From: Alicyclobacillus sp. ALC3
GTDB lineage: Bacteria; Bacillota; Bacilli; Alicyclobacillales; Alicyclobacillaceae
Length of the DNA: 64,000 nucleotides
Assembly (NCBI RefSeq): GCF_028751195.1
Contig: NZ_CP066784.1
Coordinates: forward strand, 4,030,001-4,094,000
Direction: 5' to 3'
The first letter of the stretch is position 1. Every line of letters starts with the position of its first letter. Positions 3,203 through 63,980 of the stretch are shown here, piece after piece. The notes below the pieces were generated by a model that saw only the letters and a list, made by a program, of their open reading frames with translations, ran no database searches and was not told the DNA's origin. Made by a program: the position numbers and the translations under genes.

Positions 3203-4504
3203 GTGGTGACCAGCATGGATCTCTTCAGCGTCGCAAATGAACGGGAAAACGAGGCAAGTGCGCCACTCGCCTTTCGCATGCGCCCTCGGTCTCTGGATGA
3301 AGTCGTCGGACAGAAGTCCGTCGTGGGCCCTGGTACGCTGCTCCGGCGCGTCATTGAGGCTGACCGGTTGGTCAGCGTAATCTTCTTCGGGCCACCGGGG
3401 ACGGGAAAGACGACTTTGGCGCACGTGATTGCCAATGCGACGAAAGCTCGGTTTGAAACGTTGAATGCGGTCTCGTCAGGGGTTGCGGACATCCGGCGCG
3501 TGGTGCAGGAGGCGCAGGACGAACGAAAACTTTACGGGCACAAGACAGTGTTGTTTATTGACGAAATCCACCGCTTCAACAAGTCGCAGCAGGACGCTCT
3601 GCTGCCGTACGTCGAAGGTGGTCTGCTGGTGCTCATCGGTGCGACTACAGAGAACCCGTACTTTGAGGTCAATCCGGCGCTTGTCTCGCGGTCCCACATC
3701 TTCCGTTTGGAGCCGCTTGCGCAAGCGGACGTGCGGGAGTTGCTGCAACGAGCGTTGGCAGACGAGGTGAATGGGCTTGGCAGGCTGCAGGCCACACTGT
3801 TACCAGAAGCACAAGCGGTGTTAATCCAGTACGCTGCTGGGGACGCGCGGCGCGCGTTAAACTCGCTCGAACTCGCGGCGATTTCGGCTCCCGTGGGCGC
3901 AGACGGGCACCCTGTGATTGACGCCGAGCAGGCACGCCAATCGATTCAAGAGCGGCAGGTGCTCTATGACAAGACTGGGGACGAGCACTACGACACCATT
4001 TCCGCGTTTATCAAGTCGGTGCGCGGTTCCGACCCGGATGCGGCGGTGCTGTGGCTTGCCAAAATGATTGCGGCTGGTGAAGATCCGAAGTTTATCGCGC
4101 GCCGGTTGATTATTCTCGCCTCCGAAGACATCGGCAACGCCGACCCGCACGGCTTGCCGCTCGCTGTCGCAGCGCTGCACGCGGTAGAAGCTGTCGGCAT
4201 GCCGGAAGGTCGGATTCCCCTCGCACAGGCGACGACTTACCTGGCGTCGGCGAAAAAATCGAATGCGGCGTACAAAGCGGTCAATCAGGCACTCGCAGAC
4301 GTTGGAACTGGCCTTGGTGTACGCGTGCCTGTGCACTTGCGCGGAACTGGCTACAGCGGGGCGGCAGCTCTTGGCAGCGGCCAAGGCTACTTATATCCGC
4401 ATGACTACCCGGGCCACACTGTCAAGCAAAACTACTGGCCAGAGGGCGTGAATCCGAAAAAGTACTACGAACCAGATGGGGATGAAGGGAGAAAACCCGA
4501 TTGA
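3203..4504 (+). CDS. rarA: Replication-associated recombination protein A (AAA+ ATPase)
   Basis: A 433-residue MgsA/RarA/WRNIP1-type ATPase that acts at stalled replication forks. Walker A is GPPGTGKTT (about residues 63-71), Walker B is LFIDEIHRF (about 116-124), and the C-terminal helical tetramerisation region with GYLYPHDYPGH ends the protein. The length matches the family. The start is uncertain: GTG 3203, GTG 3206 and ATG 3215 are in frame and none has a strong ribosome binding site. Its TGA overlaps the TTG start of cymR (TTGA at 4501-4504), which implies translational coupling. rarA next to cymR-iscS is the B. subtilis arrangement (yrvN-cymR-yrvO). Confidence 0.95.
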   Translation: MVTSMDLFSVANERENEASAPLAFRMRPRSLDEVVGQKSVVGPGTLLRRVIEADRLVSVIFFGPPGTGKTTLAHVIANATKARFETLNAVSSGVADIRRVVQEAQDERKLYGHKTVLFIDEIHRFNKSQQDALLPYVEGGLLVLIGATTENPYFEVNPALVSRSHIFRLEPLAQADVRELLQRALADEVNGLGRLQATLLPEAQAVLIQYAAGDARRALNSLELAAISAPVGADGHPVIDAEQARQSIQERQVLYDKTGDEHYDTISAFIKSVRGSDPDAAVLWLAKMIAAGEDPKFIARRLIILASEDIGNADPHGLPLAVAALHAVEAVGMPEGRIPLAQATTYLASAKKSNAAYKAVNQALADVGTGLGVRVPVHLRGTGYSGAAALGSGQGYLYPHDYPGHTVKQNYWPEGVNPKKYYEPDGDEGRKPD

Positions 4505-62729: not shown

Positions 62730-62759
62730 TGGTCAGGCGAATGCCTGGCCATTTTTTTT
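62730..62759 (+). terminator. Strong terminator after rnpB
   Basis: TGGTCAGGC (62730-62738) pairs perfectly with GCCTGGCCA (62743-62751) around GAAT, followed by eight T residues. Confidence 0.92.
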
Positions 62760-62952
62760 ATGTATCCCCTGCTGTGTAGTCGGCCGGTTCTGTCGGTTCC
62801 GGGGCTAAGCGGACGGACAGAGCAGTAGCGATTTAGGACTCTCGGTCAAAAGATGGACTAGTTCCTTGGTTCGTTTATCCTAGACAAGCTCCGGACAGTT
62901 GCGTTTAATACAGTGTGTTCAAATTATCTTAATCTAGTCTGGAGGGTTTTCC

Positions 62953-63195
62953 GTGAGCGAACATTGTGAACGGCACCATCATCACCATCATCACCACCAC
63001 CACCGACGCGCTGTGGAGGTGGTTGTCGACCCCAAGATTCGGAACGTGGATAGGCAGGCACAGGCGCAGTTTCAGGCACAGCTAGAGGCACAGCGGCAGC
63101 TTCAAGCTCAATTCCAAGCACAAGCACAAGAGCAATTGCAATTTGAGGCTCAGCTGCAAGCCCAGCTTCAAGCAATTGCCAGGTTGCTCGGCTAA
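62953..63195 (+). CDS. Poly-His, (Gln/Glu)-x repeat small protein, copy 1
   Basis: An 80-residue protein of no family I recognise. Residues 8-17 are ten consecutive histidines. A short link (V-E-V-V-V-D-P-K-I-R-N-V-D-R) leads to residues 35-74, exactly twenty dipeptides with Gln or Glu in every odd position and mostly Ala, Leu or Phe in the even one. It ends I-A-R-L-L-G. Such alternation would put polar and apolar side chains on opposite faces of a beta strand, and the His run could bind metal. These are inferences. GTG 62953 has TGGAGGG upstream. A paralogue follows 23 bases later. It could be a spore-surface or other structural protein. There is no signal peptide. Confidence 0.75.
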   Translation: MSEHCERHHHHHHHHHHRRAVEVVVDPKIRNVDRQAQAQFQAQLEAQRQLQAQFQAQAQEQLQFEAQLQAQLQAIARLLG

Positions 63196-63218
63196 TCTAC
63201 TCGAAGGAGGTCTCTCGT

Positions 63219-63449
63219 ATGAGTCATCATGAGTCGCATCACACGAAGCCTTATATTAAAGTTCATGTTCGTCCAGACATCGTGAACGAAGACAGCCAGG
63301 CACAGGCGCAGCTCCAAGCCCAAATTCAGTTGCAGCAGCAGCTACAAGCTCAGTTAGAAGCGCAAAGGCAGCGCCAAGCACAACTTCAGGCGCAGATCGA
63401 AGTACAGCTTGAGGCAATTCTTCGAAGAGTTACAGCTGTGATTGGCTGA
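63219..63449 (+). CDS. His-rich, (Gln/Glu)-x repeat small protein, copy 2
   Basis: A 76-residue paralogue of the preceding gene. The head is HHESHH instead of a ten-His run. The shared link is V-x-V-x-P-D-I-x-N-x-D, and residues 27-66 again form exactly twenty (Gln/Glu)-x dipeptides. The end is I-L-R-R-V-T-A-V-I-G. AAGGAGG lies upstream of ATG 63219, so translation initiation is strong. The two genes probably share a transcript and may form a mixed assembly. The function is unknown. No sporulation promoter was recognised with confidence in the 190 bases before copy 1. Confidence 0.75.
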   Translation: MSHHESHHTKPYIKVHVRPDIVNEDSQAQAQLQAQIQLQQQLQAQLEAQRQRQAQLQAQIEVQLEAILRRVTAVIG

Positions 63450-63494
63450 TCGGCGGGTGTTGACAGAAGCTGAAGCACTTCTATGAGCGACGAT

Positions 63495-63530
63495 AGGGGC
63501 AGTATTCGTAAGTTAAATGCTGCTCCTGTT
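63495..63530 (+). terminator. Possible terminator after the repeat-protein pair
   Basis: AGGGGCAGTATT (63495-63506) pairs with AATGCTGCTCCT (63515-63526) over a nine-base loop, twelve pairs with two G-T. Only GTTGTC follows, so the T run is weak. Confidence 0.5.
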
Positions 63531-63588
63531 GTCATCAACATTACATGGGCCTGTCTTTACAGTTACATGGCCATTGTGTGGCGCGAGG

Positions 63589-63617
63589 TTGCAATGCTGT
63601 TCAATGGATTCTAAAAT
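63589..63617 (+). promoter_or_regulatory. SigA-type promoter of the c-di-GMP riboswitch RNA
   Basis: TTGCAA (63589-63594), 17 bases and TAAAAT (63612-63617). The predicted start near 63624 is 24 bases before the aptamer P1 stem. Confidence 0.65.
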
Positions 63618-63863: not shown

Positions 63864-63980
63864 TTACATCGACGATACCACCATGGGTTCAGGAGGGAGA
63901 TTTGGCTTTATCGGTAAGATAGCGAGTGACGATGCCGATAGGAACAGCAGAACTGCGATCACACTTGTGACTGCCTTCAT
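63864..63980 (-). CDS. Small secreted-type peptide, Phr-like
   Basis: A 38-residue reading frame with a strong ribosome binding site (GGGGGTGA, five bases before ATG 63980) and a terminator right after the stop. It starts M-K-A, has a hydrophobic core (VTSVIAVLLFLSASSLAIL) like a signal peptide, and a short polar, proline-rich tail (PIKPNLPPEPMVVSSM). The size and layout are those of Phr pheromone precursors, which are exported, trimmed and re-imported to inhibit Rap-type regulators. A TGA at the very edge of the window (64000-63998) could be the stop of an upstream rap-like gene, which would be decisive but is not visible. A small membrane protein is the alternative. Confidence 0.6.
   Translation of the reverse strand: MKAVTSVIAVLLFLSASSLAILPIKPNLPPEPMVVSSM

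Follow-up and report, generated by a model that had tools for sequence, protein, structure and literature searches.

The closest described counterparts of the gene pair reported here are the spore coat proteins CotX and CotV, which carry the Coat_X domain (PF07552; PDB 9lgh). CotV and CotW self-assemble into fibres (PMC4950064; PMC12630357), and CotY, when His-tagged or His-rich, binds CotVW filaments at pH 6 and fails to do so at pH 8 (PMC12630357). The elements of CotV follow the order α1-β1-β2-α2-α3-β3-β4-α4 (PMC12630357). A second point of comparison is provided by designed peptides with a strict polar/non-polar period of two, among them Q11 (QQKFQFQFEQQ) and EAK16. At neutral pH and 25 °C EAK16 is a β-sheet, and it turns helical when the temperature exceeds 80 °C or the pH is extreme (PMC2387071). 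The (Gln-Ala)n tract of human TCERG1 is likewise an imperfect, hexamer-coded tract within a protein, about 17 units being the minimum for one activity (PMC9445028), yet TCERG1 is an unrelated eukaryotic transcription factor and the analogy is one of grammar only.

The pair lies in a window of 64,000 nucleotides (the whole stretch of DNA that was analysed) from Alicyclobacillus sp. ALC3, the source genome, G000. Copy 1 (62953..63195, + strand) has a GTG start and encodes 80 amino acids, comprising a MSEHCER-H10-RR head with ten consecutive histidines, the link PKIRNVD, an alternating tract (63055..63174, +) and the tail IARLLG. Copy 2 (63219..63449, + strand) has an ATG start and encodes 76 amino acids, with a MSHHESHH head containing HHESHH, the link PDIVNED, its own tract (63297..63416, +) and the tail ILRRVTAVIG. 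The two genes are paralogous, run on the same strand and are separated by 23 bases. The layout described in the earlier note, a His-rich head joined by a P-x-I-x-N-x-D link to an alternating tract, is correct on all points that the sequence itself can settle, and counting confirms exactly twenty (Gln/Glu)-x dipeptides in the tract of each copy. Shine-Dalgarno motifs, also read from the sequence, precede both starts by 7-8 bases, GGAGG for copy 1 (62941..62945, +) and AAGGAGGT for copy 2 (63204..63211, +). Both open reading frames are almost certainly real protein-coding genes, as had been proposed: each has a good Shine-Dalgarno sequence, the tracts are not microsatellite DNA, and the alternation is under selection at the protein level. 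No curated Pfam or NCBIfam family matches either protein, in agreement with the earlier statement that no known family could be recognised. Weak Pfam and NCBIfam matches (Mis12, ZnuA, T2SSN and others) were set aside as compositional, being far below the cut-offs and different for each homologue, and no PDB relative was found by sequence or by fold.

A profile search of 41 genomes from 16 genera of the family recovered relatives of the pair in two genomes, G040 and G038, both in one sister genus. The relatives, of 82 amino acids in G040 and 78 in G038, share with the pair the His-rich head, a V-x-V link with P-x-I, and the tract, and both add a Lys/Arg/His/Cys tail (KHKKHCHCR). An 8-residue indel between them equals one unit of an in-frame 24-base direct repeat in G040. 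Between species, the tract thus varies in length by whole dipeptides: the window copies have 20 and 20, the G040 protein 19 and the G038 protein 15, with about 6 in a more distant relative from genome G017. The idea that constant length implies a fixed physical register was therefore not borne out, relatives carrying 19 and 15 dipeptides, and the check that the earlier note had set for it, a count across homologues, gave a number not fixed at twenty, the outcome which it had itself named as refuting. Equal length in the window copies needs only a duplication without later indel, and the twenty dipeptides of both were probably inherited from one such event. Protein and profile scans of genome-contig, viral-contig and plasmid collections returned no match, which is not evidence of absence, as the low-complexity filter of tblastn probably masks the tract. 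In other families of the class, what the profile matched was nearly always a perfect hexanucleotide repeat coding (QV)n, (QF)n or (QT)n, as judged by eye and by lag-6 identity, and these matches were rejected.

A possible connection to the coat proteins passes through G017. The profile of the window family and Pfam Coat_X independently reach the same 54-residue G017 protein, MQTKHFRHRRGQNVAFVYNSGNSTVTTTDSQNQAQLQAQLQALLNAVQSRNIRF, which is present in two copies and has a His/Arg head followed by QAQLQAQLQA. Searched against all of Pfam, its best match is Coat_X (E 2.8e-5; 24.3 bits, just below the cut-off of 27). A CotX-domain profile scores it at 17.7, above 500/500 head-shuffled controls, and the four-member window-family profile scores it at 23.2, above nearly all such controls (499 of about 500; P 0.004). 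For the window proteins themselves, the Pfam search gave no Coat_X match at E values up to 10; the CotX profile, set against head-shuffled controls, gave P 0.60 and 1.0, and P 0.03, a marginal value, for the G040 protein. Profile-profile comparison with CotX is weak, at 12.6% when G017 is part of the profile and 0.9% when it is not. That the window pair is homologous to CotX/CotV is thereby suggested transitively, via the single G017 sequence. A search for that protein in 398 genomes of the phylum gave no match, in a set that lacked a positive control and is uninformative by itself. A second small G017 ORF, considered as a second Coat_X-like unit, was without profile support. The G017 locus (L125 5669-8980, - strand) is a duplicated two-gene cassette of the 54-residue Coat_X-like protein and a partner of about 77 residues, the start of which resembles another strand-turn-strand motif; one cassette copy is interrupted by an IS110-type transposase, with a VirB4-like ATPase near.

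The Coat_X domain and the window proteins are alike in having a short β-prone segment, a [ST]DTQA-like junction and an alternation of polar or small residues with hydrophobic ones. They differ in that the window proteins give no profile match, form a single unit instead of two and lack TTTD, and the evenly spaced Gln/Glu of their tracts is absent from CotX. In place of the two tandem β-β-α repeats of Coat_X, the window proteins, at 76-80 residues, have one head and one tract. No Coat_X gene was found in G000, and the neighbours of the pair are not a cotVWXYZ-like cluster but rpoD, trmK, nif3, rnpB, a riboswitch and an HTH-TPR regulator. By our own assignment, made by setting the published order of elements against the sequence, the CotV segment that follows the [ST]D-x junction should correspond to helix α2, and a helical tract would fit this.

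From these data we infer, with a probability of about 0.42, that the two genes specify small proteins with a structural role at the spore surface or in the coat, which would assemble through a long Gln-rich helix. Two small proteins under selection are encoded. Their head would be a flexible polybasic arm, the short V-x-V...P-x-I link a small β element, and the remainder is predicted to be a long helical rod. Such rods, with a helix of about 57 residues, could associate side by side, Gln and Glu pairing laterally while a stripe of Leu, Ile and Phe packs on neighbours. The head may dock to acidic surfaces when protonated, as in the case of CotY on CotVW filaments, or may bind metal. The assembly would belong to the spore surface, and the module would resemble a single, much simplified β-β-α unit of CotX/CotV, which form filaments; its tolerance of length changes would arise because the helix serves as a rod or spacer. 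The source genome encodes SpoIVA and is that of a spore former by gene content, which makes a spore context for the pair plausible. The spore role at which the earlier note had hinted is thus retained in part: SpoIVA, the gerA-type germinant-receptor operon beside the G040 gene and the proximity of the G017 relative to Coat_X speak for it, and the failure of the window proteins to match any Coat_X profile speaks against it. In a motif scan upstream of four homologues no consistent sigma E, K or G site came up, and no sporulation promoter was recognised.

AlphaFold2 predicts one helix in each protein, spanning residues 27-79 of copy 1 (single sequence) and 19-75 of copy 2 (two-sequence alignment), with pLDDT of about 95 in both tracts and no strands in the monomer models, although the program readily builds helices from Gln/Ala/Leu-rich sequence and had here one or two sequences per alignment. 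At the even positions, the periodicity of the large hydrophobic residues is strongest at about 100 degrees (permutation P of 0.007 for copy 1, 0.06 for copy 2, 0.003 for G040 and 0.015 for G038); on the Eisenberg scale copies 1 and 2 no longer show it, due to Arg and Glu, and the hydrophobic periodicity lends the helix modest support. As modelled, a long helix is a better bet for the tract than a β strand.

The β strand is the conformation that had been proposed previously, in which strands with Gln on one face and Ala/Leu/Phe on the other would stack into amyloid-like fibres and the histidines would bind metal. It has in its favour that strict alternation has been selected even though a helix does not need a period of two, such that the helix model leaves the alternation itself unexplained. 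The EAK16 precedent, in which periodicity can override helix propensity (PMC2387071), keeps the strand in consideration, and Q11, a designed self-assembling peptide, has nearly the same grammar. EAK16 and Q11 share the strict period of two with the window tracts, yet they are designed, headless peptides of 11-16 residues, and their conformation was measured, whereas that of the window proteins is predicted. The predicted helices and the 100-degree peak disfavour the strand, and Arg, Glu, Gln and Lys are found on its supposedly dry face. In addition, free tract length (15, 19 and 20 dipeptides) removes the argument from register, and the constant repeat number that would mark a fixed strand register in an amyloid-like fibre is not seen. 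The β-fibre is thus our second choice after the helical rod, and we regard it as unlikely.

A third and also improbable reading is that the pair encodes metal- or proton-handling cytoplasmic proteins, acting as a Ni/Zn buffer or in pH stress, with the Gln tract providing solubility or forming a condensate, and with no relation to spores. The run of ten histidines would suit such a function, as would the best promoter-like match upstream of copy 1, which is of the sigma-A type (10/12; P 0.003 for that motif among five tested). Acid-living relatives are usual in this group, which also counts towards a metal- or proton-handling role. On the other hand, no metal transporter is encoded nearby, and the number and spacing of the head histidines vary widely (HHRREH in G040, HHHHRRH in G038, KHFRHRR in G017), with Arg or Lys in their place and no conserved metal ligands of the kind expected in a His-rich metal-binding protein. 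Because histidine number varies and Arg and Lys replace His, the sequences would favour a role in charge over specific metal coordination.

The proper null for the tracts is set by hexanucleotide repeats that lie in frame and encode (QA)n, (QV)n or (QF)n, which are abundant in genomes of the family; three in-frame (Qx)n repeats were seen in G000. The DNA identity of the window tracts at lag 6 is 0.54 and 0.46, compared to 0.97-1.00 in true hexanucleotide microsatellites of G000 and a relative. Copies 1 and 2 differ at 37/120 tract bases, and Gln or Glu is kept at 20/20 odd positions, where every change is either silent or swaps Gln and Glu; at the even positions the residue is altered in 11/20 codons. 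In a neutral simulation to equal divergence, which took copy 1 as its start and ignored mutation bias but left a large margin, a mean of 8.7 Gln/Glu positions was kept, and all 20 in 0/20,000 runs. Between the G040 and G038 tracts, 6/32 aligned codons differ, 6 synonymously and 0 non-synonymously, in addition to one 8-codon indel. It is therefore well supported, by divergence between the copies that beats the neutral simulation and by the exclusively synonymous changes between G040 and G038, that the alternation is kept by protein-level selection while the even positions drift, and the selection on the alternating pattern claimed earlier is upheld by the simulation. The view that the tracts are recently expanded hexanucleotide repeats in non-functional ORFs draws on the many in-frame (Qx)n repeats of the family genomes, several of them in G000, but deserves almost no credence, as such repeats are 97-100% periodic at lag 6 against about 50% in the window tracts, the alternation could not survive neutral drift in the simulation, and head, link and tract are common to homologues in another genus.

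Alternating Gln tracts were also encountered elsewhere. Hexanucleotide repeats that are perfect and in frame, and that code for (QA)n, (QV)n, (QF)n and other tracts, occur at L019, L021 and L022 in G000 and at L010, L012, L016, L018 and L020 in family relatives; the repeat at L021 interrupts an ABC-transporter ATPase ORF past the Walker A region. In Bacillaceae, tandem small proteins (L044 and L047 in G493, L040 in G484, L042 in G454, L025 and L036 in G395) combine a (Gln)-x tract of 10-20 units with a tail in which GNP-x-I-x-I-K-N is conserved, and their heads are often rich in His and Cys; G493 has at least 5 tandem (Gln)-x small-protein ORFs, and no Pfam or NCBIfam family matches these proteins. 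Coat-like members of this set (e.g. L037, L040, L042, L044 and L047) resemble the window pair in their 10-20 (Gln)-x dipeptides, the His/Cys-rich head of several, a P-x-I-x-I-x-N motif and tandem copies. They differ from it in that the P-x-I motif follows the tract and extra hydrophobic and C-terminal segments are present, and their profile scores are driven by the tract. In G395, a Gln-tract protein (L034 6783-7193) directly follows the tryptophan operon, with no spore gene seen adjoining.

The pair is preceded by rpoD, trmK, a NIF3/DUF34 gene and the RNase P RNA gene (rnpB), and is followed by a c-di-GMP-I riboswitch and the gene for the HTH-TPR regulator. Genome G001, from a sister species of the same genus, keeps the order NIF3, RNase P RNA, terminator, c-di-GMP-I riboswitch and HTH-TPR gene and is missing the pair, an absence that refers to this locus in a genome that is 72% complete. 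Alignment with the corresponding locus, L082, delimits an accessory insert of about 62760..63590 that contains both genes; its edges are not sharp, and on its left it is bounded by the terminator of the RNase P RNA gene (62730..62759, +). The spacing between terminator and riboswitch is about 75-160 bases in G001 versus about 850 in G000. Genome G002 departs from G000 after the RNase P RNA, and among 34 loci of the family none had an orthologue of the pair in the vicinity of RNase P. The pair is thus a sporadic accessory. In G040 the related gene adjoins a gerA-type germinant-receptor operon, which is not shared with G000 or G038; in G038 it adjoins a CBO0543-family gene, and the G017 relatives adjoin an IS110-type transposase and a VirB4-like ATPase, both identified by eye. 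The locus could plausibly be mobile. We considered whether the riboswitch controls the pair and rejected this, since it lies downstream on the same strand and is also found in G001, where the pair is missing. A separate observation concerns a 38-residue ORF, MKAVTSVIAVLLFLSASSLAILPIKPNLPPEPMVVSSM (63864-63980, - strand), which follows a good ribosome binding site, begins like a signal peptide and is divergent to the HTH-TPR regulator. Its sequence does not differ between G000 and G001 (L082, about 3744-3860). Beside the c-di-GMP-I riboswitch, this ORF and the regulator recall the peptide-receptor pairs of the RRNPP type (Rgg/PlcR/Rap).

A more far-reaching proposal, which by analogy with EAK16 we put forward as a long shot, is that these proteins may represent a new minimal self-assembling family in Alicyclobacillaceae-like spore formers, in which a cationic His head is joined to a period-two Gln tract that would switch between helix and β-sheet with pH or heat, making assembly at the spore surface responsive to acidity. 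If the structural role at the spore surface holds true, the pair would be among the simplest natural assembly modules near the spore-coat class, one with a charged head and a dipeptide grammar that is under selection while length slips. It would also provide a genetically tractable natural counterpart of designed alternating peptides, in which the conformation given by strict alternation could be tested. Should the proteins prove unrelated to spores, they would still constitute an uncatalogued, selected low-complexity family.
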